A model generated the notes under the pieces. The model saw only the letters and a program-made list of their open reading frames with translations, made no database searches and was not told the origin of the DNA. The position numbers and the translations under genes are program-made. From contig NZ_FQVT01000007.1 of assembly GCF_900129445.1 (NCBI RefSeq), positions 62,001 through 126,000 of the forward strand: a DNA stretch of 64,000 nucleotides. Reading direction: 5' to 3'. The stretch is from Salegentibacter echinorum. Lineage in GTDB: Bacteria > Bacteroidota > Bacteroidia > Flavobacteriales > Flavobacteriaceae. Of the stretch, positions 1,829 through 54,170 are shown piece after piece (within the stretch, counting starts at the first letter, position 1; each line of letters opens with the position of its first letter).

Positions 1829-1883
1829 GTGTTCATTATTTTGTTTTGTTCAGTGACAATGAACATTCAAATATAATGAACAC
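1829..1883. repeat. 55-bp nested inverted repeat, copy 1
   Basis: Layout: outer arm GTGTTCATT (1829-1837), 9 nt, core TGTTCAGTGACAATGAACA (1847-1865), 9 nt, outer arm AATGAACAC (1875-1883). The outer arms are perfect inverted repeats. The core is a 6-bp inverted repeat around a 7-bp asymmetric centre. A second copy with the same spacing and core, but unrelated 9-nt spacers, is at 54116-54170. The four TGTTCA-type half-sites suggest a protein-binding or recombination site; an RNA fold with a symmetric internal loop is also possible. It lies 57 bp after the coupling protein gene in an otherwise gene-free gap (1772-2178). No other feature is evident in that gap apart from the palindrome at 2029. 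Confidence 0.7.
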
Positions 1884-2028
1884 GACACTTATAGAACTAA
1901 AGCTTAAATAATTAGGTGAAGGAACAGGCTTCCTTTCAATAAATTGATAAAATCTACTGCTAAACCATCGAAAAATAAATTCTAAAATTAGGATACCTAT
2001 TTTCTTCTGATCGAAATAGGGTTCTCGT

Positions 2029-2055
2029 AATTCGGGACCCACTGTGTCCCGAATT
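2029..2055. repeat. 27-bp palindromic repeat (CCCGA/TCGGG type)
   Basis: An inverted repeat with arms AATTCGGGAC and GTCCCGAATT around 7 nt. Its reverse complement matches the palindrome at 5550-5576, inside the DUF1016 gene, with a single mismatch. This suggests a small dispersed REP-like element. It is not followed by a T-run in the + direction strong enough to call a terminator with certainty. Confidence 0.6.
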
Positions 2056-2178
2056 GATTTTTTTTTTGGCGTCCATAAGGGTGGTAAATGATAGAGCTCA
2101 TTTTAAACCAAGAACAATTTCATTTGTTAATAACTCGCTCACATAATTTTTATCTCCATATTGAAATTTTCGTTATAA

Positions 2179-2195
2179 TTGACAAATATTGTCAA
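2179..2195. promoter_or_regulatory. Putative operator of the XRE regulator
   Basis: A perfect inverted repeat, TTGACAA and TTGTCAA with a 3-bp ATA centre, ends 28 bp upstream of the XRE start codon. Part of the motif recurs just before the ATG (TTGTCAA at 2217-2223). Autoregulation by the XRE protein, as for restriction controller proteins, is inferred from position and symmetry only. Confidence 0.45.
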
Positions 2196-2223
2196 GTTAA
2201 TTTTATCAACTTATTGTTGTCAA

Positions 2224-2541
2224 ATGAAAAAAAACAATTCCACTGGGGAAATATTGAGGAAGCAGAGAGAAGAAAAAGGCTTATTGCTTAGGCAAGTAGC
2301 AGCTCTTTTGGATGTTGATACGGCTATCCTTAGCAAAATTGAGCGTGGAGAGCGTAAGGCAAAAAAGGAACAAATTGTTGAGTTAGCTAAAATCTTAGAT
2401 TTGAATCAGGAAGATTTAATTATTCAGTTTTTAAGTGAAAGAATACTTTATGAAATTCAAGATGAAGAATTAGGAGAAAAAGCCTTGAAGGTCGCTGAGC
2501 AAAAAATAAAAAAGAATAACACTAAGCAGATTAAAGATTGA
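2224..2541 (+). CDS. XRE-family HTH regulator of the restriction operon
   Basis: A protein of about 105 residues beginning MKKNNSTGEILRKQREEKG. The helix-turn-helix spans about residues 8-62 (LLLRQVAALLDVDTAILSKI followed by ERGERKAKKEQIVELAKIL), a standard Cro/CI fold. A short helical tail follows. I chose the ATG at 2224 rather than an in-frame TTG at 2179, which would place the operator-like palindrome inside the gene and add residues before the fold. Its TGA overlaps the ATG of the restriction gene by one base (TGATG), so the two are translationally coupled. It probably times expression of the restriction-modification genes after the element enters a new cell, as controller proteins do; this is inference. 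Confidence 0.85.
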   Translation: MKKNNSTGEILRKQREEKGLLLRQVAALLDVDTAILSKIERGERKAKKEQIVELAKILDLNQEDLIIQFLSERILYEIQDEELGEKALKVAEQKIKKNNTKQIKD

Positions 2542-5255
2542 TGGGAATTAAGTTAGAAGAATTAGCGTATCAACAAACAGCGATTAAATCGGTGGTTGAT
2601 GTCTTTGACGGCACGGTTAAAAATACCTTTGACAATTCCAGTAATGACGGTATTCGCTCGAATAGAATTTCACTCACTGAGCAAGAAATTCAGGAGAATA
2701 TAAAATCAATTATTCAGGAAAATGGTATTGCTGAAGAAATCGCCAAATTAACTCCCGAACACGAATTGACCATTGAAATGGAAACCGGGACCGGGAAAAC
2801 CCTGGTGTATTTAAAAACCATTTATGAGCTTTACAAACATTACGGTTTTACCAAGTTTATCATACTTGTTCCTTCTGTCGCTATCCGTCAAGGGGTACTC
2901 AATACCTTAGAGACTTTCAATACCCAATTAGAGGGAATATATGGGTTTACCCCAAAGGCTTTTGAATATGACAGTAAGCGTTTGAATAAGGTGACCAATT
3001 TTATTGAGGAACAACATCCTCAAATAATGATAATGACCTTAGCTTCTTTTAATTCAGAAGATAAAATTTTGAACCAAGCCCAACGGGAAGATTTATTTGC
3101 CAATATTCCTTTTATTGAAGCAATTGGGCGAACCAATCCTTTTATTATAATGGATGAACCACAGGAAGGAATGGATACCCCTAATTCCATTAAGCAAATT
3201 AAAAAGCTCAATCCCCTTTTCAAATTAAGATATTCTGCAACGCATAGGGTTTCCAAAAACAAACTGTATCGCTTAACGCCGTATGATAGTTACAAAGAAG
3301 GTTTGGTGAAAAAAATAGAAGTACTTACCGTTACCGAAAAAAACGATGAGGCTACTTTAAAACTTGAATTATCTGAAGTTAAGTTTGGAAAAGGCGATCC
3401 AAAGGTTAAAATAAAAGCTTGGCACCAAATGGCCAGTGGGAAAATTCAGTTTAAAAATACAGCCTGGTTAAAAGAGGATGATAATCTTGGAGAGAAAACG
3501 AATAATCCAAGTTACCTAAACTATAAGATACAACGCATTCATAAAAGTCTTCGTACCCAAAAATGGTCTGTAACTTTCTATAATGGAACAGAAATATTAG
3601 AAAAACAGGCTTCCGGCAATATCCAAAGCATTTGGGAATTACAATTGGAATGGCTCATCATTAGACATTTCACCAAAAAGCAAAAACTACAGGAGCAAGG
3701 TATTAAATGTCTTTCCCTTATATTTATTGATAAGGTGGCTAACTATGTTAGCGATGATCCTGTTATTAAAAGGATATTTATAGAAAAGTATAAAACACTT
3801 TATCCTGAATTTCATAACAATCAAGAGCCTTCAGCCGAACATATCGAACATATTCAAGGTTCATATTTTGCTAAAACGGGCAAGGGAGAGTTTACAGATA
3901 GCGAAAGTTCGATGCGTAAGAACAGCGATGTATTTGATGCTATCTTAAAAGACAAAGAGGGTTTACTCAATTATGGTGATAGTGTGGCCAATAAAATCGA
4001 GTTTATTTTTTCACATTCCGCTTTGGGCGTTGGGTGGGATAACCCTAACATCTTCAACATTGCTACCTTGAGCAATTCTTATTCTGAAATTAAAAAGCGA
4101 CAGGAGATTGGGCGTGGCTTGCGTATATGTGTGGATAATAAAGGAAATCGTATTTATGACAAGCCAGATGTTTCCGATGCTGATCGTATCAATCAGCTGA
4201 CCGTGATTCCAAATGAAACCTATGAAACTTTTGTAACTCAATATCAAGAAGAAATAAAAGAAGTTTATGGAACACAAACGGCTGGTGCCGGAATGACGCA
4301 TACTCATAAGGGAAAACCGCAAAACGAAGTTCGATTTAAGCGGAATGATAATGAGAATATCAATAAAGCTTTCAAACGTTTTTGGGCTGCCCTCGCTAAA
4401 AAAACCAATTATACCGTAGCTTTTGATGAAGAAGCCCTTGTTGAAAGAAGCCGGGAAGCGCTCAATCAAATAGATATTGCCGATTATGTAGCAGAGGTGA
4501 ATAGCCGATCTATTAGTGCTATTTCAGAGGAAGAATTCAAAGATGAATTTGGAGGGAGTGAAAGCTATAAATTAAAAGCCAGTTATACGGCTTTGGATTT
4601 GGTGGAAGAACTCAGCGAAAATACGGGATTGAGCTATACCACAACTTTTTCCATTATTCGGGATATTGAGCACGCCCATTTTGCCAAAAATCCACCACAG
4701 TTTATCCACCGGGCTTCTGCACTTATAAAGAATATTGAACTGGAAGAAATGTTACGTGGTTTGGATTATCATTTAACCAATGAAGTCTTTCCTTTTGATT
4801 TTGATGATTTTGTAAAACAACTGGATGATAAACGCTATACATTAACTCCAAAACGCGGAGTTTTTGACAAAACCTTAGTAGATAGTGAAGTGGAACACAA
4901 ATTTGCTTTGACTGCTGATAACGATGATGAGGTAGTCTGTTTTCTTAAACTACCTTCTTATTATAAAATCAAAACACCTATTGGTGAATACGAACCGGAC
5001 TTCGGAATCGTGATGAAACGCAAAAATTTAAAAGACGGTGTGGAAAGTGAATTTTATTTTGTAATTGAAACAAAGGGAACCAATAACATCAATGATAAGA
5101 AGTCTTTAAAAGAAAGTGAAGTTTATAAAATAAAATGTGCGCTTAAACATTTTGAAGCATTGGGCGTAGATGTAAAATACAAAGCCCCTGTAAAAGAGTA
5201 TGATTATTTTAAAACAGAAGCTCAAAAGGATATAAATAAAGTGCAACAGGCCTAA
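2541..5255 (+). CDS. res: Type III restriction enzyme, Res subunit
   Basis: A 904-residue helicase-nuclease subunit that cleaves DNA in complex with Mod. N-terminal superfamily 2 motor: ETGTGKT (Walker A, residues ~81-87), DEPQ (205-208), SATH (motif III), and a C-terminal helicase lobe with GVGWDNP and QEIGRGLRI (motif VI). A C-terminal PD-(D/E)xK nuclease is visible as PDFG (819-822) followed by ETK (843-845). The length is typical of Res. It starts at the ATG that overlaps the XRE stop. A DUF1016 nuclease gene is inserted between res and mod, instead of the usual direct mod-res pairing. All motifs look intact, so the enzyme is probably active. Confidence 0.93.
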   Translation: MGIKLEELAYQQTAIKSVVDVFDGTVKNTFDNSSNDGIRSNRISLTEQEIQENIKSIIQENGIAEEIAKLTPEHELTIEMETGTGKTLVYLKTIYELYKHYGFTKFIILVPSVAIRQGVLNTLETFNTQLEGIYGFTPKAFEYDSKRLNKVTNFIEEQHPQIMIMTLASFNSEDKILNQAQREDLFANIPFIEAIGRTNPFIIMDEPQEGMDTPNSIKQIKKLNPLFKLRYSATHRVSKNKLYRLTPYDSYKEGLVKKIEVLTVTEKNDEATLKLELSEVKFGKGDPKVKIKAWHQMASGKIQFKNTAWLKEDDNLGEKTNNPSYLNYKIQRIHKSLRTQKWSVTFYNGTEILEKQASGNIQSIWELQLEWLIIRHFTKKQKLQEQGIKCLSLIFIDKVANYVSDDPVIKRIFIEKYKTLYPEFHNNQEPSAEHIEHIQGSYFAKTGKGEFTDSESSMRKNSDVFDAILKDKEGLLNYGDSVANKIEFIFSHSALGVGWDNPNIFNIATLSNSYSEIKKRQEIGRGLRICVDNKGNRIYDKPDVSDADRINQLTVIPNETYETFVTQYQEEIKEVYGTQTAGAGMTHTHKGKPQNEVRFKRNDNENINKAFKRFWAALAKKTNYTVAFDEEALVERSREALNQIDIADYVAEVNSRSISAISEEEFKDEFGGSESYKLKASYTALDLVEELSENTGLSYTTTFSIIRDIEHAHFAKNPPQFIHRASALIKNIELEEMLRGLDYHLTNEVFPFDFDDFVKQLDDKRYTLTPKRGVFDKTLVDSEVEHKFALTADNDDEVVCFLKLPSYYKIKTPIGEYEPDFGIVMKRKNLKDGVESEFYFVIETKGTNNINDKKSLKESEVYKIKCALKHFEALGVDVKYKAPVKEYDYFKTEAQKDINKVQQA

Positions 5256-5271
5256 AAGAATAAAAAAATTA

Positions 5272-6258
5272 ATGAAACCCGGTAAATCACATAGCGCCCT
5301 TATTCAAGAAATAAGGGGTATTTTAAAACAGGCTCGTAAACAGGCTGCTACAGCGGTTAATTCCGCAATGGTATTTGCTTATTGGGAGATTGGGCAACGT
5401 ATTGTAGATGAGGAACAAAAAGGTAGCGAAAGGGCGGAATACGGCACTTATTTATTAAAGGAATTAGCCCAAAACCTAAGTCGGGATTTTGGCAAAAGCT
5501 TTGATGCTCGTGAGTTACGTAGGATTCGGCAATTTTACCTGAGTTTTCCAATTCGGGACACAGTGCGTCCCGAATTGAGTTGGTCTCATTATCGCTTATT
5601 GATACGTGTGGAAAATGAAAGTATACGGGAGTTTTATTTGAAGGAATCCATTAGCCAACATTGGAGTACCCGAAAACTTGACCGTAACATTAGCAGTCAA
5701 TATTACCAGCGCATTTTATCCAACCAATCTAATGAGGAAATTACTTCAGAAAAAGGTGAATTATCCAGCTTGGATTTTATTAAAAACCCCTACGTACTCG
5801 AATTTCTTGATCTTCCCGCCAATTTAACACATAAAGAAAAGGACATTGAAAAAGCTATTATTGCCCATTTACAAACTTTTCTGTTGGAATTGGGTAAAGG
5901 TTTTGCCTTCGTAGCGCAGCAAAAACTGGTGCGAACCGAGACTTCAGATTTCTTTATTGACCTGGTATTTTACAATTATCATTTGAAATGCTTTGTAGTG
6001 ATTGATATTAAAAGTGGAAAATTGAGCCATCAAGATATTGGGCAGTTGGATATGTATGTACGAATGTTTGACGAGCGTGAAAAATCGAAGACCGATAATC
6101 CCACAATCGGGATATTATTATGTGCCGATACCGATAATGTGGTGGCTAAATATTCGGTACTTAATGATAAGAAAAACCTGTTTGCTTCAAAATATCAAAT
6201 GTACCTGCCCAGTGAGGAAGAACTGCAACAATTTATAGAAAAAGACCTTGAAGAATAG
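5272..6258 (+). CDS. DUF1016/YhcG-family PD-(D/E)xK nuclease, copy 1
   Basis: A 328-residue protein. The N-terminal DUF1016_N helical domain reads AMVFAYWEIGQRIVDEEQKG ... RELRRIRQFYLSFP, then LSWSHYRLLIRVE. The C-terminal nuclease domain reads KGFAFVAQQ ... FIDLVFYNYHLKCFVVIDIK, where D and DIK match a PD-(D/E)xK core. The family is common in defence islands beside restriction genes; its exact role is not settled. Residues ~93-102 (IRDTVRPEL) are encoded by a 27-bp DNA palindrome that also occurs between genes at 2029. It lies 16 bp after res and 2 bp before mod, so it belongs to the same operon. Confidence 0.88.
   Translation: MKPGKSHSALIQEIRGILKQARKQAATAVNSAMVFAYWEIGQRIVDEEQKGSERAEYGTYLLKELAQNLSRDFGKSFDARELRRIRQFYLSFPIRDTVRPELSWSHYRLLIRVENESIREFYLKESISQHWSTRKLDRNISSQYYQRILSNQSNEEITSEKGELSSLDFIKNPYVLEFLDLPANLTHKEKDIEKAIIAHLQTFLLELGKGFAFVAQQKLVRTETSDFFIDLVFYNYHLKCFVVIDIKSGKLSHQDIGQLDMYVRMFDEREKSKTDNPTIGILLCADTDNVVAKYSVLNDKKNLFASKYQMYLPSEEELQQFIEKDLEE
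5550..5576. repeat. 27-bp palindrome inside the DUF1016 gene
   Basis: Arms AATTCGGGAC and GTCCCGAATT enclose 7 nt. It is one mismatch from the reverse complement of the intergenic copy at 2029-2055. It is in frame and encodes part of the linker between two conserved DUF1016 segments. Confidence 0.7.
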
Positions 6259-6260
6259 TT

Positions 6261-8321
6261 ATGAGTGATAGTAAAGAAACTATAGAAAACCCATTGGAAA
6301 AAGTACAGTCACACGACTGGAATAGAGAACGGTTAGAGCAATTAAAACAACTGATGCCAGATTTGTTTACTAGTGAAGGGAAACTAAATATCAACGAACT
6401 CAAAAAAGTGGTGGATCCCGAAAGCGTAAGTGAAACCGAACGCTATGAATTTCGCTGGTTTGGAAAGAGCAAGGCAAAACGAGAAGCTTTTACGCCCACT
6501 AATGCTACACTTGTTTATGATGAAGACCGAAGTGTAAACCCTGAAAATAGTGAAAACCTGATTATTGAAGGAGAAAACCTACAGGTGCTCAAGTTACTCA
6601 GCAAAAGTTACCGTGAGCAGGTTAAGTGCATTTATATTGATCCGCCTTATAATAAAGATAAAGATTTTGTATATCGAGATACTTGGAAACAAGATGTTAA
6701 GTCTTATTGGGAGGATTCCGAAATGACTGAGAATGGAGTAAATGTTGATACGAATTCAGAAACAGATGGTCGTTTTCATAGTAATTGGCTAAATATGATG
6801 TACAGTAGATTGCTTATTGCTCGGCAATTGCTAAAGGAAGATGGAGTTTTATTTATCTCGTTAGACGATAGTGAAATACATCACTTGCGAAAGTTGTGTG
6901 ATGATATTTTTGGAGAAGAAAATTTTATTGAATGTATAACTTGGAATAAGAGAGTACCTAAAAACGATAAGGGTATAGGTAATATTCACGAATATATATT
7001 ACTCTATGTAAAAAACTCGGGTGTAAAACACGAGTTTACGATGAAAAAGGGAGGAATTGAAGAGATTAATAGACTATTATTTAAATTAAAAAAACAGAAA
7101 AAACCGATAGCAGAAGCTGAGAAAGAAATAAAGCGGCTTTATAAAAGAAGAGATTTTGATAGAGGGATTACTTTATATAATTCTTTAAATGCTGATTACA
7201 GATTATGGGGTAAAATAAATATGAGTTGGCCTAATGCTGATACCTTTGGACCAAACTATACAGTTAAACATCCTAAGACTGGCAAACCCGTAAAAGTTCC
7301 AGACCGGGGATGGAGGTGGAAAAGAGATACTTTTAATGAAGCGGCAAATTTTGTAGATGGAGAGTATCAAGATATTACTGAACTCCACGACGGAAGCTTT
7401 CTTTGTGGCAGAATTTGGTTTAGCAATGATGAAAATACCCAGCCAAGTTCAATAACATATTTTGATGAAGTTCAACGATTTCTGCTTAGGTCTATTCTTT
7501 CTACTAAAAGTGATGGAGGAATTGAAATTGAAAAACTTTTTGAAGGGAAAAGTTTCTTCTCATATCCCAAGCCTAGCAGATTAATCAAATTGCTATTTGA
7601 TTCAATTCCTATTAATAAGGGTGATATATTTCTTGATTTTTTCGCTGGTTCTGGGACTACTGGACAGGCGATACAAGAACTAAATGAAGAAGATGGTTTG
7701 ATAAGAAATTACATTTTGGTTCAGTTTCCAGAGGCAGCTGAAGAAAAAAGCGAGGCTTTTAAAGCAGGTTATAAAAAATTAAGCGATATCACTATTGAGC
7801 GTAATAAAAGGGTAATTGAAAAAATAATTGCTGAAAAGAAGAAAGACGAACCGGATTTATTCTCTGAAAGGAAGGACGAAAAAGAACAGTTAAAAGGCCT
7901 GGGTTTTAAAGTATTTAAACTCGTAAAATCTAATTTTCCACGGGTAGAATACGCTCCAGACCCGGAAAAGTCTGAGGAAGAAAATATAGCCTTGCTTAAA
8001 AAATATATTACCGAGAAAGAAGCCCAATTGGTTTCTGCTTTTAACCGGGAAGAACTCATTGCCGAAATTTTAATAAAGAACGGTTTTAAACTCAATTATA
8101 CCTTAGATAAACAGGAACAATTTAGGGAGAATGAGATATTCCTGGCATCAGATCGCGAAAAGGAAACCCTGATATGTTTAGATGTAAGCTTGGCAGAGGA
8201 AACCGTTGGGTATTTTAAAACACATACTGATCAAAAATTAATCGTGTTGGAAAGAGCTTTGGACACTACCAAAAAGTGGAATCTGAAGCATTATATGGGT
8301 GATAAATTTAATGCGTTTTAA
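6261..8321 (+). CDS. mod: Type III DNA methyltransferase, Mod subunit
   Basis: A 686-residue beta-class N6-adenine methyltransferase that recognises the target site and modifies it, and also guides Res. Motif IV DPPY (127-130, preceded by IYI) comes before motif I DFFAGSGTT (459-467), the beta-class order. Between them (about residues 230-430) is the variable target-recognition region, which sets specificity and cannot be read out by eye. The N-terminal ENLIIEGENLQVLKLL is typical of Mod. It starts 2 bp after the DUF1016 stop. The sequence shows no internal stop or missing motif. Confidence 0.93.
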   Translation: MSDSKETIENPLEKVQSHDWNRERLEQLKQLMPDLFTSEGKLNINELKKVVDPESVSETERYEFRWFGKSKAKREAFTPTNATLVYDEDRSVNPENSENLIIEGENLQVLKLLSKSYREQVKCIYIDPPYNKDKDFVYRDTWKQDVKSYWEDSEMTENGVNVDTNSETDGRFHSNWLNMMYSRLLIARQLLKEDGVLFISLDDSEIHHLRKLCDDIFGEENFIECITWNKRVPKNDKGIGNIHEYILLYVKNSGVKHEFTMKKGGIEEINRLLFKLKKQKKPIAEAEKEIKRLYKRRDFDRGITLYNSLNADYRLWGKINMSWPNADTFGPNYTVKHPKTGKPVKVPDRGWRWKRDTFNEAANFVDGEYQDITELHDGSFLCGRIWFSNDENTQPSSITYFDEVQRFLLRSILSTKSDGGIEIEKLFEGKSFFSYPKPSRLIKLLFDSIPINKGDIFLDFFAGSGTTGQAIQELNEEDGLIRNYILVQFPEAAEEKSEAFKAGYKKLSDITIERNKRVIEKIIAEKKKDEPDLFSERKDEKEQLKGLGFKVFKLVKSNFPRVEYAPDPEKSEEENIALLKKYITEKEAQLVSAFNREELIAEILIKNGFKLNYTLDKQEQFRENEIFLASDREKETLICLDVSLAEETVGYFKTHTDQKLIVLERALDTTKKWNLKHYMGDKFNAF

Positions 8322-8345
8322 TGGGGCAGGAGTAAAATTCAAATT

Positions 8346-9680: not shown

Positions 9681-9720
9681 ACTTGACCAGGAAATATAAT
9701 TTACCTTTTATTTTTTTGCG

Positions 9721-10086
9721 CTAAAACGGCCCTTTATCTCTCGGACCATTATGCGTAACCTTCCATTGACCATCTTCATTAACCAATTTAAATATACCGG
9801 GTTTTCGGTCATAGGAGGTTGAATATTTAATCCACGTTACCTCACCTTCTTTTTGTTCATCCAAGACCTTAAAGTTGGATTTAGAGTCTTTATTCTCAAT
9901 AAACATTTCTTGTATACTGGAAAGATTTGCATACCCGGATGCTGTAGTATATTCCTTTAAAGTTGTCTTATCACCGTGATAAAAACTTTCAGCTACGAGT
10001 TTGGCGGTTTCTGAAGGAGATAAATTTTGTTTTCCGGCACACGACAGAACTAATGCTACTAACGAAAAAAATGCTATTTTTTTCAT
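9721..10086 (-). CDS. Small lipoprotein at the end of the tra operon
   Basis: A 121-residue protein with a lipoprotein signal (MKKIAFFSLVALVLSCAG; lipobox Cys at ~16). The mature part reads TAKLVAESFYHGDKTTLKEY ... FKLVNEDGQWKVTHNGP, the pattern of DUF4878-like NTF2-fold lipoproteins. It should be anchored in the envelope. It starts 7 bp after the traN stop, so it belongs to the transfer operon and may be an accessory channel or exclusion protein; the sequence gives no proof. It converges with the (+) restriction operon, leaving 40 bp between stops. Confidence 0.75.
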   Translation of the reverse strand: MKKIAFFSLVALVLSCAGKQNLSPSETAKLVAESFYHGDKTTLKEYTTASGYANLSSIQEMFIENKDSKSNFKVLDEQKEGEVTWIKYSTSYDRKPGIFKLVNEDGQWKVTHNGPRDKGPF

Positions 10087-10093
10087 AACGATG

Positions 10094-12529: not shown

Positions 12530-12536
12530 AGTTGTT

Positions 12537-41686: not shown

Positions 41687-43234
41687 ATGAAAACAAAAAT
41701 TTTATTCGATTATTTTATCTATTGCAGTTTCAAATACTACCTGTGGATTACTAATATTTGCTTGCTGATAATCATTTTTCTATTCAGTTATAAAATAAAC
41801 GCTGTCCTAAAAGGTATGCTTTTATTTGCCGGCCCAATCCTGTTTTTAAATACGCTTATATATGTGTATTTCATTGATGGGAAGTTGATAGACGCAGTCT
41901 CCAAAAAATATCAAGTCCGGTTTAAAACCATCGGTAAAAGTTTTAAAATTGAAAATATTAAGAGGGGTGTTTCTGTGATTGGTTCGGCGGGTAGTGGAAA
42001 AACCGAAAGCGTAGTCTATGGTTTTCTTAGACATTTTGAAAAATATCAATTTTGCGGAATCATCCACGATTACAAGGATTTTGAGATTACCGAAATGGCC
42101 TACCCGCTTTTTAAGAACCCGGATATTCCCTTCAAAATTATTTCTTTTGATAAAATCATCCATCGGGTCAATCCCATTGCACCACGATACCTGGACAATG
42201 AGGAGAGCGTCAATGAAATTTCCAGGGTGCTCATTGAAAACTTATTGGAGCAACGAGAATCGGGAATGAGCGGAACAACTAAATTTTTCAACGATGCAGC
42301 GGAAGGCTTAATTGGTGGATTGATCTGGAAACTCAAAACCTCTTATCCGGAATTTTGCACTTTGCCCCATCTTATTGCGGTCTATCAATTTTTGAACACG
42401 GAAAGTCTTATCGCTTTTTTAGAATCGAACACGACTTCCAGGGCAATGGCAGATGCTTTTATTAGCGGAAAAGATTCCGAGAGGCAAACGGCAGGAGTAA
42501 AAAGCACCCTGGCCAATGCACTGAAACGTATCAGTACGCAAAGCATCTTTATGACCTTATCGGCAGATGAAGTGCCTTTGAATATTAACAACCCCGATAA
42601 TCCTGCGGTGATTTCCGTAGTGAACAATCCAAAATTTGAGAGTTCCTATTCACCCGTTATTGCTACAATTATGCACACGATAACCAAACAGATGAGTGTG
42701 CGGAACTCCAAACCTTCTTTTTTGTTGATGGAAGAAGCACCTACGATTCGTTTATTAAATATGCACCGCATCCCCGCGACTTTAAGAAGCTATGACATCG
42801 CTACTATCTACGTGATGCAGGACAAGATTCAAAACGATATGATGTATGGAGACAAGGCAAGCAAAGCAATTTTAAGCAACCTTTCCTATCAGTTTTTCGG
42901 CAAGGTGAATGATCCAGACACCGCAAAATATTACGAACGCTTTTTTGAAATCATAAAAGATCCTACCAAAAGTGTAAGTCGTAGCCATAACCTCGATTTT
43001 GATACACGCATTACCACCGGGGAAAAGGAAATTCCCAAAATCCGAGCCGATGTTTTCTTCCGGCTAAAACAAGGAGAATTTATAACCTATGCCGATGGGA
43101 AGGATAAAAAGGTGAAGTTTAAATTGCAAAATATTCAGCGGAAACTTCCAGAGGAAACTACACGATATACAAAGGCAGATTTGGAAACTAATTTTGATCG
43201 GGTTTATTGTGAGGCGAGGTCGATATTTCTTTGA
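41687..43234 (+). CDS. Type IV coupling protein (VirD4/TraG-like), copy 2
   Basis: A 515-residue ATPase with N-terminal membrane helices (about 10-65), Walker A GSAGSGKTES (99-108) and FLLMEEAP as Walker B. From about residue 75 on it parallels copy 1 with only scattered changes, whereas the first 70 residues are unrelated in sequence. This pattern suggests that the N-terminal part adapts to a different channel. No tra operon follows it, so it may depend on another element's secretion system. Confidence 0.9.
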   Translation: MKTKILFDYFIYCSFKYYLWITNICLLIIIFLFSYKINAVLKGMLLFAGPILFLNTLIYVYFIDGKLIDAVSKKYQVRFKTIGKSFKIENIKRGVSVIGSAGSGKTESVVYGFLRHFEKYQFCGIIHDYKDFEITEMAYPLFKNPDIPFKIISFDKIIHRVNPIAPRYLDNEESVNEISRVLIENLLEQRESGMSGTTKFFNDAAEGLIGGLIWKLKTSYPEFCTLPHLIAVYQFLNTESLIAFLESNTTSRAMADAFISGKDSERQTAGVKSTLANALKRISTQSIFMTLSADEVPLNINNPDNPAVISVVNNPKFESSYSPVIATIMHTITKQMSVRNSKPSFLLMEEAPTIRLLNMHRIPATLRSYDIATIYVMQDKIQNDMMYGDKASKAILSNLSYQFFGKVNDPDTAKYYERFFEIIKDPTKSVSRSHNLDFDTRITTGEKEIPKIRADVFFRLKQGEFITYADGKDKKVKFKLQNIQRKLPEETTRYTKADLETNFDRVYCEARSIFL

Positions 43235-46083: not shown

Positions 46084-46272
46084 ATGAACAGGATTAAGAT
46101 AGTGCCGGAGTAGAAAGGAATAAAACAAATTTGGTTGTCTAAAAAATGGGCAAGAGCTATAATACGGTCAATGCTTATGCAAAATCGACAGCAATCACGT
46201 CTAAAAGTTTTAAATGAAATTGCACGCATCCTCGATGTGGATGTGAGCCAATTAATCTTATCGAATAAATAG
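46084..46272 (+). pseudogene. Broken XRE regulator of the type I restriction operon
   Basis: In frame from ATG 46084 it reads MNRIKIVPE, stop, KGIKQIWLSKK, then out of frame MGKSYNTVNAY, then back in frame QNRQQSRLKVLNEIARILDV and DVSQLILSNK with a stop at 46272. Pieced together this is a short Cro/CI-type regulator of about 64 residues, the sort found before hsdM in Bacteroidota. It has one premature stop (46111-46113) and two compensating deletions (one base in an A run, two bases after NAY). The intact copy should have ended 5 bp before hsdM. Confidence 0.72.
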
Positions 46273-46277
46273 AGTAC

Positions 46278-48416
46278 ATGACCAACGAACAATTAAAAGA
46301 ATTAGAAGACAAGCTCTGGGATGCCGCCAATTCTTTACGGGCTTATGGCGGACTAAAAGCTTCAGATTACGCCGTACCGGTATTGGGCTTGATTTTTCTA
46401 AAGTTTGCCGAAAATAAATACAGCCAATTCGAGCCACAGATTAAAAAGGAATTTGAAAAGGGCAAAGGCACGCGCATGGAGCGAAAGATGGAAGAAATTG
46501 CTTTGGCCACATGTGGCTTCTATTTGCCCGAAGAAGCACGTTTTGATACGCTTTTAAATTTGCCCGGCGACCAAAGCCTGGCAAAAGCACTAAAAGCTGC
46601 GATGGTGGGTATTGAAAAACACCAGGATGCCAAGTTTCAAGATGTACTGCCTACAGAGGCCTATTTCGATATCGAAAAGAAGAAGGCCGATATCCTGCCG
46701 CAATTACTGAAAGCTTTTTCAGATATTCCAAAAGAAGCAAGCGGTGATGTCTTTGGGAAGATCTACGAATATTTCTTAGGGAAGTTTGCTATGGCCGAAG
46801 GCCAGAAAGGCGGCGAGTTTTTTACGCCTATTTCTGTGGTGCGGTTTATTGTGGAAGTTATTGAACCTTTTAACGGCAAAATTTTAGATCCTGCCTGTGG
46901 TTCCGGGGGTATGTTTGTGCAATCGGCCCGCTTTGTAGAGCAGAGCAATCAGGATTTGAAAGATATTTACGTTTGCGGACAGGAATATATGGGCGAAACC
47001 GTGCGCTTGGCCAAGATGAACTTATTGGTGAATAATCTTCGGGGTGAAATTATAGAAACTAATTCTTATGAAAACGATCCCCACGAGAGTTATGGCAAGT
47101 TTGATTATGTGATGGCGAATCCCCCGTTTAATGTGAAATCTGTAAAGGAAAGTACCGTTAAAAATGACCCACGCTTTTACGAATACGGCTTACCCAAGAA
47201 TAAAGGCAAAAAAGATGATAAAATCTCAGATGCTAATTACCTTTGGATTTCACTCTTTGCTACTTCCTTAAAACCATCGACTAGCTCAGGTCAGGGCGGG
47301 CGTGCTGGTTTTGTAATGCCGAACTCTGCTTCTGATGCTAGAAATGCGGAATACGAAATTAGAAAAAAGATTGTTGACAGTGGCATTGTAGATTGTATGG
47401 TAAGTATGCCATCTAATATGTTTTTCACGGTGACTTTGCCGGCTACCTTATGGTTCTTCGATAAACAAAAAGTGCATACCGACCGCAAGGACAAAATCTT
47501 GTTTTTGGATGCCCGAAATGTGTATCGGCAAATAGACCGCGCCCACCGGGAATGGACCGAAGAGCAGCAACAAAACCTGGCGGCTATTGTACGCTTATAT
47601 CGTGGGGAAACCGAGCGTTATTTGGAACTGATAGATAGCTACTTAAAACAAGCCCATCAAGCCGAAAACAAGGTAGAGCCTTTAAAAGAAGTTTTGGTAA
47701 GTGCATTAAAGGAAAAAGTAGCGGCTTTAAAGAAATACACCGAAGAGACTGAGACGGAAAAGCGAACCCCAACCAAAAAGGAGATTTTTGAAAAGGTAAA
47801 AGAATCTTTAAACGCTTTATTTCTTACAGAAGCCCAACAAAATGAGGAAGAATTAATATTACTTCAGGACTCGTTAACAGAAACACCCCTGGAAAACGAA
47901 AAGCAGAAAGCAGCTGCAAATCATTTAGCCTGGAAGGTAAAACAAAACGACTTTGATGAAACGGCTTTAAAGAAAGACGTTCACGCGTTTATTGAAATTT
48001 TTAAAGAAGCCGATAAAAAAGCCAAACTGAAGAGCGATAAAACCTGGGTAACGTTGGAACTGTCAAAAACAGATAAAAAATTAGAAGAAGCTTTAACTGC
48101 TTATACCAGTGCGGTAGATGAAAGTAAGTATTGGTTTGAAAATATAGATTGGCTGCAAAAACGTTTCCCGGAAGCCAAATACCAGGATGTGGTGGGCTTA
48201 TGCAAAATGGCTGATAGAACTGAGTATGTGGAAGAACAGGACTATTCCTTAAATGCAGGACGCTATGTTGGGGTGGAGATTGAAGATGATAATATAACTA
48301 AAGAAGAGTTTAATTTGAGACTTAAGTTAAGATCAGAATCTTTAGCGATGCTTAACAGTGAAGCTCATGTTTTAGAGAGTCAGATTGAAAATCGTTTGAA
48401 TAATTTGATTGTATGA
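46278..48416 (+). CDS. hsdM: Type I DNA methyltransferase, HsdM
   Basis: A 712-residue N6-adenine methyltransferase subunit. An N-terminal HsdM helical domain (residues ~1-140) is followed by motif I DPACGSGGMF (near 205) and motif IV NPPF (near 280). A long coiled, charged C-terminal extension (about 420-690) makes it larger than usual. Residues ~333-339 read PSTSSGQ, encoded by a REP-like sequence inserted in frame between motif IV and NSASDARNAEYEI. The stop overlaps hsdS by 4 bp. Confidence 0.93.
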   Translation: MTNEQLKELEDKLWDAANSLRAYGGLKASDYAVPVLGLIFLKFAENKYSQFEPQIKKEFEKGKGTRMERKMEEIALATCGFYLPEEARFDTLLNLPGDQSLAKALKAAMVGIEKHQDAKFQDVLPTEAYFDIEKKKADILPQLLKAFSDIPKEASGDVFGKIYEYFLGKFAMAEGQKGGEFFTPISVVRFIVEVIEPFNGKILDPACGSGGMFVQSARFVEQSNQDLKDIYVCGQEYMGETVRLAKMNLLVNNLRGEIIETNSYENDPHESYGKFDYVMANPPFNVKSVKESTVKNDPRFYEYGLPKNKGKKDDKISDANYLWISLFATSLKPSTSSGQGGRAGFVMPNSASDARNAEYEIRKKIVDSGIVDCMVSMPSNMFFTVTLPATLWFFDKQKVHTDRKDKILFLDARNVYRQIDRAHREWTEEQQQNLAAIVRLYRGETERYLELIDSYLKQAHQAENKVEPLKEVLVSALKEKVAALKKYTEETETEKRTPTKKEIFEKVKESLNALFLTEAQQNEEELILLQDSLTETPLENEKQKAAANHLAWKVKQNDFDETALKKDVHAFIEIFKEADKKAKLKSDKTWVTLELSKTDKKLEEALTAYTSAVDESKYWFENIDWLQKRFPEAKYQDVVGLCKMADRTEYVEEQDYSLNAGRYVGVEIEDDNITKEEFNLRLKLRSESLAMLNSEAHVLESQIENRLNNLIV

Positions 48417-49678
48417 GTTTGAATTATAAAATATCACCCCTTAATGAAGTCTGTTCAGAAATTATAGACTGTGTTAACAAGACAGCTCCTGTGGTAGATT
48501 ATGAAACGCCATACAAAATGATAAGAACAACAAATGTGAAAAAAGGATATATTGATGTTGATACAGTTCGATATGTAACCAAAAAGACATTTGAAAAATG
48601 GACGAGACGAGCTAAACCTAAAAGGAATGATATTGTTCTTACTAGAGAAGCTCCATTAGGCGAAATAGGTTTATTAAGAAGTGACGATAATATTTTTCTT
48701 GGTCAAAGATTGATACAGTATAGAGCTAATAAAAAGGTTATAGATCAACATTATTTATATTATGCTTTTCAGGATTCATTTATGCAAGGTCAAATAAAAT
48801 CTTATGGTTCAGGAGCAACTGTAGAACATTTGAGAATTGGTGATTGTGAAACAATAAAAGTCAAATACCCAAGCCTTCCCACCCAAAAGAAAATTGCCTC
48901 CATACTTTCTGCCTATGACGATTTGATAGAAAATAACAACCAACGCATTCAGCTGTTGGAAGAAATGGCAGAAGAAATTTACAAAGAGTGGTTTGTGCGT
49001 TTGCGTTTCCCGGGTTATCAAGACAGTAAATTCTTTAATAAAAATGGGGAGGAAGTGCCACACGGTACAGTTGGTGCTTTGCCAGAGGGATGGAAAGAAG
49101 GCACCGTTGGAGATTTAATTGAAATAAAGAAAGGGAAAAATATTACTAAAACAACGATTAAGGAAGGAACTGTTCCAGTAGTAGCGGGTGGATTACAACC
49201 TGCATATTATCATAATACCTCAAACACTAAATCACCAACTATAACAGTAAGTGCTTCCGGAGCAAATGCTGGTTTTGTTAACTTTTATTATGAAGATATT
49301 TGGGCTTCTGACTGCTCATTCATAGACACAGAAATGACCGATTGGCTATACTTCTTTTATTCAACCTTAAAAACTAGACAGAAAGAAGTTTATCATTTAC
49401 AAAAAGGATCTGCACAACCACATGTCTATCCTAGCGATATTATGAGTCTAAATTTAAAATATCCAAAAGACAATCTGATAAATAAGTTTGAGGAAATGAT
49501 TAAGCCATTTTATGAAGAAATCAGTGTTCTAAAGAACAAAAACCAAGTCCTCCAGGAAACCAGGGATCTGTTATTGCCACGTTTAATCAGTGGAAAGTTG
49601 AATGTAGATGATCTTGATGTAGAAAATAATTCGATAACGGCTATGGCTGCGGAGCCGGAAGAAGCCTATAAAAGCTAA
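48413..49678 (+). CDS. hsdS: Type I specificity subunit, HsdS
   Basis: A 421-residue target-recognition subunit. Two variable DNA-binding domains (about 1-150 and 225-360) are separated by the first conserved helix (LPTQKKIASILSAYDDLIEN) and closed by the second (LQETRDLLLPRLISGKLNVD). The halves differ, so the target should be bipartite and asymmetric. It starts with an ATGA overlap on hsdM. Confidence 0.93.
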   Translation: MSLNYKISPLNEVCSEIIDCVNKTAPVVDYETPYKMIRTTNVKKGYIDVDTVRYVTKKTFEKWTRRAKPKRNDIVLTREAPLGEIGLLRSDDNIFLGQRLIQYRANKKVIDQHYLYYAFQDSFMQGQIKSYGSGATVEHLRIGDCETIKVKYPSLPTQKKIASILSAYDDLIENNNQRIQLLEEMAEEIYKEWFVRLRFPGYQDSKFFNKNGEEVPHGTVGALPEGWKEGTVGDLIEIKKGKNITKTTIKEGTVPVVAGGLQPAYYHNTSNTKSPTITVSASGANAGFVNFYYEDIWASDCSFIDTEMTDWLYFFYSTLKTRQKEVYHLQKGSAQPHVYPSDIMSLNLKYPKDNLINKFEEMIKPFYEEISVLKNKNQVLQETRDLLLPRLISGKLNVDDLDVENNSITAMAAEPEEAYKS

Positions 49679-49690
49679 AGAATAAAGGGA

Positions 49691-50740
49691 ATGAGTATAG
49701 AAAAGCAATTATCGCCAGAAAAATGGTTTGCCAATATTCAGCATAAAATTGAGCTTGCGCAACATAATACTGCCCTAAAAGTAAATCAGGATTTATTACA
49801 GCTCTATTATGAGATTGGACGTTCTATTATAGAGGTGCAGGAGCAATTAGGATGGGGAAGCCAAATTATAGATCAATTGGCCGCCCACATCAAAGAGAAT
49901 TTTCCAGAATCGACAGGGTTTTCCGTACGAAACCTTAAATATATGCGTGCTTTTGCGGCAGCTTATCCAGAATTTCCAATTGTGCAAGTGCCGCTTGCAC
50001 AAAACAACAAAGAATTAGTGCAAGTATCGCTTGCACAAATACCCTGGTACCATCATATCAGTTTATTAACCAAAGTGAAAGACCTGGCAGAAAGGGTGTT
50101 TTACTTGCTGGAAACGGCTAAAAACGGCTGGAGCAGGGATACTATGTTGTTGCAAATAAAATCAGATCTATATAAGCGCCAGGGGAGTGCAATCACTAAT
50201 TTTAAAGATACCTTGCCACCCTCCCAATCAGACTTAGCCCAACAAACCATTAAAGATCCTTATGTTTTTGACTTTATGAGCTTAACACAGCCATTTAAAG
50301 AAAAAGACCTGGAGGTTCAATTAATCAACCACGTTTCTAAATTTTTATTAGAACTCGGTAAGGGCTTTGCCTTTATTGGAAAACAATATCAGCTAAAAAT
50401 GGCTGAGCAAGATTATTATTTAGATTTACTCTTCTACCACGTTAGCTTGAAATGTTATGTGGTCATAGAATTAAAAAACACCAGGTTTATTCCGGAATAT
50501 GCCGGGAAACTAAATTTTTATTTATCGGCTGTGGATGATAAGCTAAAAACAGAATATGAGCAGCCTTCAATTGGTATTTTATTATGTAGGGATAAAAATA
50601 ATTTAGAAGTTGAATTTGCTTTAAGAGGTATGAGCCAGCCTATGGGCGTAAGTGAATTTACCCTAACCGAAATTTTGCCAGAGGAATTAAAAAGTAGCTT
50701 GCCCACGGTTGAAGAAATTGAAAACGAACTCGAAAAATAA
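49691..50740 (+). CDS. DUF1016/YhcG-family PD-(D/E)xK nuclease, copy 2
   Basis: A 349-residue protein. The DUF1016_N part reads LLQLYYEIGRSIIEVQEQLG WGSQIIDQLAAHIKENFPES, NLKYMRAF, then WYHHISLLTKV. The C-terminal nuclease domain reads KGFAFIGKQYQLKMAEQDYY LDLLFYHVSLKCYVVIELK. Residues ~97-116 contain a duplicated VQVxLAQ, encoded by two small DNA palindromes, at the same place where copy 1 carries a different palindrome. It sits between hsdS and hsdR, 12 bp after hsdS and 3 bp before hsdR. Confidence 0.88.
   Translation: MSIEKQLSPEKWFANIQHKIELAQHNTALKVNQDLLQLYYEIGRSIIEVQEQLGWGSQIIDQLAAHIKENFPESTGFSVRNLKYMRAFAAAYPEFPIVQVPLAQNNKELVQVSLAQIPWYHHISLLTKVKDLAERVFYLLETAKNGWSRDTMLLQIKSDLYKRQGSAITNFKDTLPPSQSDLAQQTIKDPYVFDFMSLTQPFKEKDLEVQLINHVSKFLLELGKGFAFIGKQYQLKMAEQDYYLDLLFYHVSLKCYVVIELKNTRFIPEYAGKLNFYLSAVDDKLKTEYEQPSIGILLCRDKNNLEVEFALRGMSQPMGVSEFTLTEILPEELKSSLPTVEEIENELEK
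49980..50036. repeat. Two tandem palindromes inside DUF1016 copy 2
   Basis: TTGTGCAAG / CTTGCACAA with a 5-nt loop (49980-50002) and GTGCAAG / CTTGCAC with a 5-nt loop (50018-50036). Both are in frame and look like a duplicated unit. Confidence 0.65.
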
Positions 50741-50743
50741 CGC

Positions 50744-53700
50744 ATGGCATTTTTAAACGAATCACATATAGAGGATGCAGATGTTCAATTCTTTTTAGAA
50801 GAGCTGCAATACAATCAACATATCAATGCCTGGGAGAAGCAGTTAGTGGGTAGGGACAGTCTAAAAGACGTCGTGCTAAAGGATCGGTTGCAAGCCAAAC
50901 TTAACCTGTTGAATCCGCAATTACCTGTTGAATGCATCGATACTGCAATGCGCGAGCTGTGCAAAAGTAGAGCTTCCCTTAATCCTGTAATGGCCAATAA
51001 GGAGGTGTATGAGCTCATTAGAAACGGTATTCCCGTCACCTATAATAATGAGAACGGTAGGGAGGAAAATGATTATGTAAAGGTGATTGATTTTGAGCAG
51101 CCACAACAGAATGATTTTGTGGTGGTGTCTCAGTTAAGTATCGAGTACCTTCAAACGGAGAATATTACACGAAGACCAGATTTATTGCTCTATGTGAATG
51201 GCTTGCCTTTGGTAATGATTGAGCTGAAAAATGCTACTGAAAAAGTGAAATCGGGCTTTGATGTTAACCTAAGACGTTACAAACGGGATATCCCACAATT
51301 GTTTTGGTATAATTGCTTTGTGGGTATTTCCAATGGTATTCAAACCAGGGTAGGATCTTTTAACGCTCCCTGGGAACATTTTTTCTCCTGGGTGAAATTA
51401 AAAGATTCAGCAGTATCACACGAACAACCAAACCGGGAAGAGGTAGAAGCAGAAAGCAAAACTACAGGAAATCATTTAAGCCTTAAGCTTTTTGGAAGAG
51501 GTTTGTGTCAAAAAGTGAGTTTGCTGGATTACTTTGAGAATTTCGTCTTGTATCATAGAAACAAGGTAAAGATTATCGCTAAAAACCATCAGTTTTTAGG
51601 AGTCAATAATGCGGTAAAATCGCTAAACCAAAGGGCGGGTAAAAAAGGAAAGCTGGGCGTTTTTTGGCATACGCAAGGTTCAGGGAAATCCTATTCCATG
51701 ATATTTTATTCGCGTAAAATTCAGCGGAAAGTAGAAGGCAACTGGTCTTTCTTAATTGTAACCGATCGTAAAGATTTGGATGATCAGATCTACCGAAATT
51801 TTAAGGAAACGGAAACTATTGCTGAAACTAAGGATCAGAAAGAAAATTACTACCGCCCAACTTCAAGAAAAGTGTTGCAAGATTATTTGCAATCTAACCG
51901 GACTTATCTGTTTAGCCTCATTCATAAGTTCGGGATTGAAAAAGGGAAAACCTATCCGGAACTCACAAATAGGGATAATTGGATTGTGATGGTAGATGAA
52001 GCGCACCGTACCCAATACAAAGGATTTGGTGAAAATATGCGAATAGCTATTCCAAAAGCGCAGTACATCGCCTTTACGGGAACGCCATTATTAAGAAGTG
52101 AAAAAACGAAAGACTGGTTTGGGCCTTATATTTCTGAATACAATTTTGCTCAAAGTATAGAAGATGGCGCAACAGTGCCCTTGTATTACAAAAAGAGTGT
52201 TCCTAGAGTAGAACAAGTCAATGAAGATTTGGTGGGAAATGCCGCTGAAATCCTCGAAGATGAAAACTTAACAGAGGAACAAAAGAAGAAACTGGATCGA
52301 GAATATTCCACTTTACTACAGGTGGTAAGACGAGAAGATCGTTTACAGGAAATTGCGAAGCATATTGTTCAGCATTACCCTTATCGACTTGATGTTGAGA
52401 ATGCAGAAAAAGAACGAAAACCGATGAAAGCCATGGTGGTTTGTATCGATAAGTTTACAGCCGTTCGCATGTATGAGTTTGTGCAGGAAGCACAGAAAAA
52501 AGAAATAAGGGAACTGCGTAAAAAGATTGTAAAAGAAAAAGATCCTGAAATAAAAGAGCGTTACAAGCGAGCAATCGTTTTTATGGAAGAGACCAGAATG
52601 GCTGCCGTAATAAGTGGGGAAGGGACAGAGAAAGAAGAAAAGGAGAAGTTTGAGAAAGAAGGATTAAACATTAGTCCGCATAGGAAGTTGATGGACTATC
52701 CAGATGAAGATGGCCGGAATATTGAAGATTATTTTAAAGACCCCAATAGCAATTATAGAATGGTATTCGTTACCGCCATGTGGTTAACAGGCTTTGATGC
52801 GCCTTCGGTTTCTACTTTGTACTTAGATAAACCGATGCAAAACCATACGTTGATGCAGGCCATTGCCAGGGCGAATCGGGTTATTGAAGGTAAGAAAAAT
52901 GGTTTGATAATCGATTATTTTGGCGTATTCCGAAACTTGCAAAAAGCTTTAGCAGCTTATGCAGAAGGCACAAAAGGGAAAGCTTCTGAAGACGATGATG
53001 CCGATGAATTCCCTGTAAAGGAATTTGATGAATTGATGGCATTATTAGAGGAAGGAATTGCTGAAGCAAAAGCCTATTGCAAAGCATTGGGTGCCGATAT
53101 TGATGCCATTATTAATTTGGGTGAAAAGGGATTTGCTGAGGTTGAACTCTTTCAGGAATACGCAGATATTATCTTGGAAAATGATGAATATAAAAAACAT
53201 TTAGGCTTGTTTGTGAATACCATTGTTAGTTTATACGATTCGGCAAAACCAGAAATATACAGCCATCCAAAAATTAAAAAGGAACGCGATGTTTTTGAGT
53301 ATCTTAAAAAGGTTGTGGATAGACAGGTAGATCAAGATGAAGCCATTGAAAGAGCTAAAAAACGCCTGGACGGTTTACTTGATTCTAGTGTACTCGGAAA
53401 AGGGGATTTAGCAAAAGATGTTTTGAAAGAGTACAGTATTCGAAATTCCAAACAAATAGATTTGAGCAAGTTGAATTTTGCGCAATTGCGAGCAGAGTTT
53501 CCTGAAAAGAAACATCAGAACATTCAATTTGCAGATCTAAGGGAATTGATGGAAGTAAAGCTGAAGAAAATGTTGGCTCAAAATAAGACCAGAGGTTCTT
53601 TTCTAGCCCGTTTTGAGAGTGTGATAGAAGAATATAACTCTGGAAGTTTGTCTATTGAAGAAGCTTATGAAAAATTGCTGAAACAGGCAGAAGATCTTTC

Positions 53701-54040
53701 TGAAGAACAGGAACGAGCAGCCAAAAATGATATGACCGAAGAAGAGTTGGAGCTATATGATTTGCTTCGGAAAGATAAATTAACAAAGGAGGAAGAAAAG
53801 AAAGTGAAGCTTGCAGCTTCCACGTTATATCAAATTCTTTTTGATGCAAAGAACAAGATTCTGATCCAGGAATGGCATAAAGAAAAAGCAACGCAAGAAA
53901 TTGTAAAGCGGGAAATCCAAAAGATATTGGACAAAGATCTCCCTGACTCCTATAACCGTAACATATTTGCAGAAAAAACAGAATCGGTTTTCAGGCATTT
54001 TTATGAGTTGGCAGAGATGGGGAGAGGTTTTGCTGCTTGA
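50744..54040 (+). CDS. hsdR: Type I restriction endonuclease, HsdR
   Basis: A 1098-residue motor-nuclease subunit. The N-terminal PD-(D/E)xK site is RRPDLLLYVNG ... VMIELK (about 140-161). The SF2 motor has HTQGSGKS (near 310-317), VDEAHRTQ (motif II), FTGTPL (motif III), MWLTGFDAPSVSTLYLDKPM and IARANRV (motif VI). A helical C-terminal domain binds the HsdM2S core. All motifs are present. It is the last gene of the type I operon. Confidence 0.94.
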   Translation: MAFLNESHIEDADVQFFLEELQYNQHINAWEKQLVGRDSLKDVVLKDRLQAKLNLLNPQLPVECIDTAMRELCKSRASLNPVMANKEVYELIRNGIPVTYNNENGREENDYVKVIDFEQPQQNDFVVVSQLSIEYLQTENITRRPDLLLYVNGLPLVMIELKNATEKVKSGFDVNLRRYKRDIPQLFWYNCFVGISNGIQTRVGSFNAPWEHFFSWVKLKDSAVSHEQPNREEVEAESKTTGNHLSLKLFGRGLCQKVSLLDYFENFVLYHRNKVKIIAKNHQFLGVNNAVKSLNQRAGKKGKLGVFWHTQGSGKSYSMIFYSRKIQRKVEGNWSFLIVTDRKDLDDQIYRNFKETETIAETKDQKENYYRPTSRKVLQDYLQSNRTYLFSLIHKFGIEKGKTYPELTNRDNWIVMVDEAHRTQYKGFGENMRIAIPKAQYIAFTGTPLLRSEKTKDWFGPYISEYNFAQSIEDGATVPLYYKKSVPRVEQVNEDLVGNAAEILEDENLTEEQKKKLDREYSTLLQVVRREDRLQEIAKHIVQHYPYRLDVENAEKERKPMKAMVVCIDKFTAVRMYEFVQEAQKKEIRELRKKIVKEKDPEIKERYKRAIVFMEETRMAAVISGEGTEKEEKEKFEKEGLNISPHRKLMDYPDEDGRNIEDYFKDPNSNYRMVFVTAMWLTGFDAPSVSTLYLDKPMQNHTLMQAIARANRVIEGKKNGLIIDYFGVFRNLQKALAAYAEGTKGKASEDDDADEFPVKEFDELMALLEEGIAEAKAYCKALGADIDAIINLGEKGFAEVELFQEYADIILENDEYKKHLGLFVNTIVSLYDSAKPEIYSHPKIKKERDVFEYLKKVVDRQVDQDEAIERAKKRLDGLLDSSVLGKGDLAKDVLKEYSIRNSKQIDLSKLNFAQLRAEFPEKKHQNIQFADLRELMEVKLKKMLAQNKTRGSFLARFESVIEEYNSGSLSIEEAYEKLLKQAEDLSEEQERAAKNDMTEEELELYDLLRKDKLTKEEEKKVKLAASTLYQILFDAKNKILIQEWHKEKATQEIVKREIQKILDKDLPDSYNRNIFAEKTESVFRHFYELAEMGRGFAA

Positions 54041-54115
54041 TAAGAAGATTTTAAGGATTCATCTACATAATTCAAGTTATTGTTGAGAGTTGCTGATTGC
54101 TGCAAACTGATATGG

Positions 54116-54170
54116 TGTTCATTTCTATGCCCTGTTCAGTGACAATGAACAGCTGGAAAAAATGAACATA
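54116..54170. repeat. 55-bp nested inverted repeat, copy 2
   Basis: Outer arm GTGTTCATT (54116-54124), 9 nt, core TGTTCAGTGACAATGAACA (54134-54152), 9 nt, outer arm AATGAACAT (54162-54170). The core is identical to copy 1 and in the same orientation; the 9-nt spacers are unrelated. It lies 75 bp after hsdR. Confidence 0.7.

Follow-up and report, generated by a model that had tools for sequence, protein, structure and literature searches.

The window analysed here, a 64,000-nucleotide stretch of the Salegentibacter echinorum genome, carries conjugation and restriction genes together with two copies of a 55-bp nested inverted repeat. Based on its position, its geometry and its gene context in other genomes, this unit is very probably an operator of AbiEi_2 (COG4861) antitoxin-repressors, the regulators of type IV toxin-antitoxin modules. 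Since the assembly yielded no cognate gene, both window copies are orphans of this predicted class, carried on a conjugative element. They lie as follows.

1829..1883, no strand assigned: predicted four-half-site operator, copy 1, orphan; half-sites TGTTCA at 1830-1835 and 1847-1852, TGAACA at 1860-1865 and 1877-1882
54115..54169, no strand assigned: predicted four-half-site operator, copy 2, orphan; half-sites at 54116-54121, 54133-54138, 54146-54151 and 54163-54168

The unit reads TGTTCA-N11-TGTTCA-N7-TGAACA-N11-TGAACA, that is, four occurrences of one half-site, as TGTTCA at offsets 0 and 17 and inverted as TGAACA at offsets 30 and 47; together they make two 23-bp arms with 7 bp between them. 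Copy 1 has no mismatch to GTTCA-N11-TGTTCA-N7-TGAACA-N11-TGAAC, and all 22 conserved positions are intact in both copies. With up to three mismatches allowed, the full pattern matches the window at these two places only (each on both strands), and never in 100 dinucleotide shuffles; the inner palindrome TGTTCA-N7-TGAACA likewise occurs at just these two places in the 3.96-Mb assembly, its reversed control at none. The two 55-bp copies of the original prediction are thus recovered, copy 1 exactly where it had been placed and copy 2 one base to the left of the 54116-54170 given for it. The letters are also as described, with a 19-bp core identical in both copies, outer arms that differ in their last base only (AATGAACAC / AATGAACAT) and four 9-nt spacers that are all different, except that "arm" and "core" are not separate parts.

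AbiEi_2 genes at the site in other genomes

Scans of public genomes and of viral sequences gave at least 118 and at least 120 stretches with the unit, respectively; all were analysed, and both are lower bounds from non-random sets. The half-sites were fixed by the search pattern, and the evidence rests on geometry controls and gene context. The exact geometry was found in at least 120 viral stretches, against 0 for the reversed pattern, 4 for an arm spacing one shorter and 21 for a centre one longer. An AbiEi_2 (PF09952) homologue, recognized with a profile grown from the protein of locus L013, has its start (the frame's first ATG, GTG or TTG) no more than 250 bp from the site in 78 of the 118 genome stretches listed; in one stretch it lies farther off, and in 39 none was seen. 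A gene for an AbiEii-like nucleotidyltransferase accompanies 63 of the 79 AbiEi_2 loci, against 1 of the 39 loci without AbiEi_2 and 0 of the 120 viral ones, among the matches listed. By their record titles, the AbiEi_2-linked sites span Bacteroidota, Pseudomonadota, Actinomycetota, Acidobacteriota and others. From phylum to phylum the half-sites and their spacing stay the same, and spacers and centre vary. Together, the geometry controls and the gene context uphold the earlier proposals that selection acts on protein contacts and that the four half-sites serve a repressor. The AbiEi_2 starts beside the site, the AbiEii-like genes and the paired 23-bp repeats published for AbiE systems are the grounds for assigning the unit to COG4861-type modules.

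The same arrangement was recognized among nearer relatives. The inner palindrome alone is present in 65 of 299 Flavobacteriaceae genomes. Nine family places were read (L013-L021), eight of them picked for a centre resembling KTGWCAM, together with ten others (L003-L012); all eight have the outer arms GTTCA / TGAAC at the same spacing, and L021 and L003-L012 lack them. In an order-wide search, the full pattern with up to two mismatches was found in 15 of 395 genomes, with 0 for the reversed control among the matches listed. At L013-L016, a gene of 327-334 aa lies immediately downstream of the site. Pfam assigns the L013 and L015 proteins to AbiEi_2 and the products of the next genes to AbiEii (that of L015 slightly under the curated cut-off), and the genomes of L014 and L016 contain PF09952 with AbiEii-like genes beside it. 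The site of L013 lies 9 nt before the start of the AbiEi_2 gene, and behind this gene, in the same orientation, come an AbiEii-like gene, one for an N6 methylase and one of 453 aa. When a 265-bp stretch around copy 1 was used as query, 13 of 219 genomes matched, outside the own genome over the site only; of the nine non-own loci read, in genomes of which four were already known, six have AbiEi_2 and AbiEii-like genes and three do not.

It had been proposed to search Flavobacteriaceae for the genes that flank the pattern; in the wider genome scan, most of the sites listed stand at the start of an AbiEi_2 gene. Restriction genes are no general companion, because among the matches listed the DNA read shows restriction-like genes in 10 of 79 loci with AbiEi_2, in 4 of the 39 without it and in 0 of 120 viral loci. 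One AbiEi_2 operon (L450) has, besides its operator at 1502, a weaker site at 488 (four mismatches), about 1 kb off and near the start of a frame whose product, by appearance, we take to be ParB-like.

Many of the AbiEi_2-linked sites also carry a promoter-like motif, TANNTTTG, which we take to be the -7 box of Bacteroidota promoters. Among 94 AbiEi_2 sites (some loci being counted twice), it lies in the distal spacer in 27, in the proximal spacer in 6 and on either strand in 28; for Bacteroidota, chosen by title from 80 listed, the count is 17 of 27. It is scarcer in viral sites (4/119) and in genome sites without AbiEi_2 (4/39, and 2/12 in Bacteroidota). Copy 1 has the motif on the minus strand in its right spacer (1868..1875), as in the AbiEi_2 promoters of relatives; it is directed towards the neighbouring mobC-like gene, and no good -33 box was seen upstream of it. 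The spacers of copy 2 have it on neither strand.

In the L013 protein, Pfam recognizes a helix-turn-helix at about 138-197 and AbiEi_2 at 190-328. An AlphaFold model (mean pLDDT 89.5, pTM 0.66) gave only weak Foldseek matches over its whole length, none at E ≤0.001 and with the matched part of the model not shown; they include nucleases (the repair endonuclease 2vld, EndoMS, MspJI, AspBHI) and winged-helix regulators (MepR, MntR, CprK). A sequence search of solved structures gave nothing useful. From these matches and a D-ExK-like motif, whose D33 and K48 are the most frequent residues at their positions (81% and 76% of 78 sequences), we infer that the N-terminal part may be PDDEXK-like, its activity being doubtful.

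In the mechanism proposed here, the winged-helix domain of the repressor would read the TGTTCA half-sites, which stand 17 bp apart in each of two 23-bp arms facing across the 7-bp centre. The unit would overlap the abiEi promoter or gene start, and the bound repressor would shut its own operon, namely antitoxin, toxin and, in some relatives, the methylase genes behind them. For the orphans in the window, the reader would be a regulator that some hosts provide in trans; otherwise these copies would be decoys or leftovers.

Several observations weigh against the assignment to AbiEi_2 repressors. PF09952, DUF6088 and AbiEi_3_N all lack a match in the own assembly, so that no known reader exists in this strain, and AbiEi_2 is not in the DNA read for 39 of 118 genome and 119 of 120 viral stretches, among the matches listed. 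The published operators differ in the letters of their half-sites (TGTTGCTTTTA) and are those of COG5340, which is said to share no sequence identity with COG4861 (PMC3985639). In two loci of another family, L156 and L157, the likeness starts roughly at the site's left edge and runs to the right, with different genes to the left, and in one phage (L346) the left half of one site type is joined to the right half of another, as might be expected of a recombination site.

Orphan copies in the window and in viruses

Around the two copies, the window contains the following.

191..1771, plus strand: mobC-like gene for a conjugative coupling protein, next to copy 1 on its upstream side
1772..2028, no strand assigned: 257-bp interval from the mobC stop to a terminator-like hairpin, containing copy 1
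1868..1875, minus strand: TANNTTTG in the right spacer of copy 1
2179..8321, plus strand: XRE regulator, type III Res, YhcG-like nuclease and DNA methylase (type III Mod), downstream neighbours of copy 1
46278..54040, plus strand: HsdM, HsdS, YhcG-like nuclease and HsdR, forming a type I restriction operon whose end is some 75 bp from copy 2

Both copies do border restriction cargo, as had been noted, copy 1 standing between the mobC-like gene and the type III operon and copy 2 just past the hsdR stop. The site is not tied to this cargo, being found at 0 of 10 Res and 0 of 9 hsdR relatives read (within about 1.5 kb, ≤5 mismatches). A place as part of the restriction cassettes was thus rejected, the window's own locus alone having the site among the 11 Res and 10 HsdR loci. 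So was a place in the conjugative backbone, the site being absent from all 29 other mobC loci read (same distance and mismatches), a subset drawn from 82 other genomes with a mobC match. No link to the site was found for an integrase gene at 36104-37312. The mobC-like genes at 191-1771 and 41687-43234 are 79% identical; because both lie in one contig and the assembly has four matches, the window seems to include portions of two conjugative elements that are related to each other. A gene for a YhcG-like PDDEXK nuclease (DUF1016) occurs within both restriction operons, type III (5272-6258) and type I (49691-50740). Beyond copy 2, the region 54215-56762 has an IS3-like transposase (54332-55282) beside an IS1182-like transposase in two overlapping frames, and perfect palindromes lie at 54215-54244 and 54369-54402.

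Neither window copy stands at the start of an AbiEi gene, so they are orphan operators at most. "Orphan" here means no AbiEi_2 genome-wide for the genome of the window and for the genomes and contigs checked for PF09952, and elsewhere none in the DNA read. Ten genomes with sites were checked in this way, and five have PF09952 and five do not (G258, G236, G261, G220 and G010); of the latter, G010 has DUF6088 and G220 has AbiEi_3_N elsewhere. For sites without AbiEi_2, 42 flanking proteins were examined: one each from L017 and L018, and 40 from 27 of the 39 genome loci, hand-picked without hairpin-like cases. In these, Pfam recognized Fic in 4 and AbiEi_3_N, DUF6088 and HTH_3 in 2 each, with 25 of 46 families listed. 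Six of the 39 are nearly perfect hairpins (10-11 of 11 spacer pairs) and are probably something else. Some orphans do lie near defence genes. At L020 a BREX run (brxA, brxB and brxC, with a GmrSD-like gene behind them) begins about 0.8 kb past the site, a single frame of 132 aa separating the two, and at L157 it is about 120 bp before an HsdS gene, the next frame being HsdM by eye; that of L156 is beside a YgjP-like fragment. For L156 and L157, AbiEi_2 status refers to the DNA read around the site.

It is possible, though the balance leans the other way, that the window copies are relics, left behind when an AbiEi_2-AbiEii module beside the restriction genes was deleted. Copy 1 on its minus strand has TATATTTG in the distal spacer and in this resembles promoters of AbiEi_2 genes in relatives; at L013 and L016 a single run comprises AbiEi_2, AbiEii-like and methylase-type genes; and no repressor was found in the genome. 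However, no AbiEi_2 remnant was detected in the six frames of the window (pieces of ≥20 aa; the best score was 5.6 bits, with E 0.59), neither copy has lost any of the 22 conserved positions, and copy 2 lacks the TANNTTTG box. The relative G274, whose mobC and Res are 85% and 92% identical to those of the window, has a terminator-like hairpin 33 bp after mobC and neither site nor module between the two genes.

A second possibility, which we regard as rather unlikely, is that the orphans carried by phages and conjugative elements act as decoys or hooks that bind a host AbiEi-type repressor and so alter the expression of toxin-antitoxin or defence operons on entry and multiplication. The abundance of the exact geometry in viruses, set against its controls, argues for this. 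In the 120 viral stretches listed, 97 sites are distinct and fall into 71 groups, and only 19 of the 120 sites overlap an open reading frame (ORF) of ≥80 aa, leaving 101 clear, although 4791 of 6000 random places overlap one. Forty viral contigs scanned whole have one exact copy each (two have an extra three-mismatch match), and PF09952 is present in one of the 40, the contig with AbiEi_2 beside its site. The viral neighbours are of many kinds (127 flanking proteins). Among 80 relatives of one phage gene, 11 have a site with all 22 conserved positions intact, 1 has one change, 2 have three changes and 66 have none that could be seen, some of these loci ending shortly past the gene.

Against the decoy interpretation, this set was ranked by likeness to the site-adjacent protein, and at least 7 of the 11 perfect sites were already in the first scan. 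Site presence varies between close relatives, the region around that phage site being mosaic, and conservation in place was rejected, as the site is absent in 8 distant homologous phage loci (≤6 mismatches). Orphans are no cleaner than AbiEi_2 sites, perfect sites in the order-wide search amounting to 5 of 9 without AbiEi_2 and 4 of 6 with it. Titration of a repressor would, moreover, raise the toxin too. Finally, no phage site was matched with the repressor of a host, and the label Bacteroidota for phage hosts is an inferred one. Four site-flanking phage proteins compared with those of named phages had matches spanning varied phages and assigned no host. A terminase was closest to Bacteroides phages (37%), with 1763 matching records of many hosts. 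The matches of a 649-aa protein were in six uncultured phages (462-735 kb), and those of a 771-aa protein in one uncultured phage (40%) and in phages of Flavobacterium (34%). A nitroreductase matched phages of Acinetobacter, Staphylococcus and Listeria at no more than 33%.

We also consider it unlikely, if worth stating, that the fourfold TGTTCA code (11-7-11) is common to bacterial phyla and that stand-alone copies in mobile DNA capture host AbiEi-type repressors by operator mimicry. Orphans that are not cleaner, and an 80-relative phage set that is not free of selection, make both decoys and mimicry slightly less likely. If true, mimicry would let mobile DNA reset, or plug into, the way in which a host controls its toxin-antitoxin and defence operons. 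In view of the phage copies the decoy interpretation merits a test, and the orphans allow a cheap test of whether mobile DNA influences such control through DNA sites, not proteins.

Two further layouts were encountered in viral DNA. After a 172-aa phage gene (L341-L420), the sequence is mosaic, with other palindromes (for example GAGTAA/TTACTC) that vary between close phages and may be further binding sites. In addition, 21 viral contigs (L282-L302) have the same half-sites around an 8-bp centre, possibly a second operator geometry.

Recombination and folding

The asymmetric centre between inverted half-sites had suggested a tyrosine recombinase crossover; such a site, serving to move cargo, now seems highly improbable. 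The one-sided likeness of L156 and L157 and the composite site of L346 point that way, as do pairs of viral sites, 38 being alike on one side only and 16 on both. A crossover should concentrate similarity breaks at the site. In 102 comparisons of viral sites sharing one flank (pairs that are non-independent), breaks fell across the site in 50 and across an equal stretch beside it in 50, and with a second cut-off in 57 each; an earlier, looser cut had given 30 across the site and 22 beside it, of 142. The recombination junction, promising from the one-sided pairs, thus shows no excess over the adjacent-stretch control and was rejected. Most genomic copies stand at the start of an antitoxin gene (the 78 of 118 listed), the 40 viral contigs scanned whole have a single exact copy each, and the centre is variable and often near-palindromic, all of which speaks against a crossover.

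The folded shape offered in the original prediction, be it a cruciform or an attC-like or terminator-like RNA hairpin, deserves next to no credence, for in spite of the nested inverted repeat, and of letters next to the inner half-sites that agree between sides beyond independence, the spacers pair little (75 of 124 genome sites and 71 of 120 viral ones have 3-5 paired places out of 11, and only 7 and 2 have ≥9) and the unit of AbiEi_2 loci sits at the gene start. Integron attC sites are imperfect hairpins with extrahelical bases at cassette ends, used with an integron integrase, and the low spacer pairing speaks against that identity as well. The agreement of inner half-site letters, computed after sites with ≥9 of 11 spacer pairs had been removed, was tried as a test between RNA and DNA; it fits both and was not used.

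Comparison with known operators

The AbiEi_2 operator predicted here was compared with three published systems. In the restriction islands controlled by RptR, a dedicated repressor likewise heads a defence island with restriction genes; RptR, however, is a small 9-kDa protein that binds TAGCTA palindromes in direct repeats (PMC12255303). By that criterion an RptR operator was rejected, TAGCTA being in neither window copy. The Rv2827c promoter has 23-bp inverted repeats paired 13 bp apart, in two pairs, with up to four bound species (PMC7319586). It resembles the unit in its paired 23-bp inverted repeats, and differs in the 13-bp gap, the two pairs and the COG5340 antitoxin.

The closest parallel is the abiE operon of Streptococcus agalactiae, in which AbiEi (COG5340), a winged-helix antitoxin and autorepressor, represses its own operon via two 23-bp inverted repeats 3 bp apart (PMC3985639). 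That operator and the 55-bp unit share paired 23-bp inverted repeats starting with TGTT, promoter overlap and a bicistronic antitoxin-toxin operon. They differ in that the former has a 3-bp gap, a perfect outer 11 bp (TGTTGCTTTTA) and a COG5340 rather than a COG4861 regulator, and no orphans of it were seen in the text available (PMC3985639). The same source describes COG4861-COG4849 as a second pair of regulator and nucleotidyltransferase genes, with no sequence identity to COG5340. No description of a 23-7-23 TGTTCA operator was found in a literature search of mainly open papers, themselves available in part. In short, the unit has the paired repeats of about 23 bp that mark AbiEi-type operators (TGTTCA-N11-TGTTCA spans 23 bp, with a 7-bp gap) and, as a class, their place at the start of an AbiEi gene with an AbiEii-like gene in most cases. 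AbiEi operators as such are already known; the unit, with high probability the operator of COG4861-type AbiE modules, adds a variant to them, and the likely reader of a DNA code found in several phyla is thereby named as the COG4861 branch of AbiE systems.

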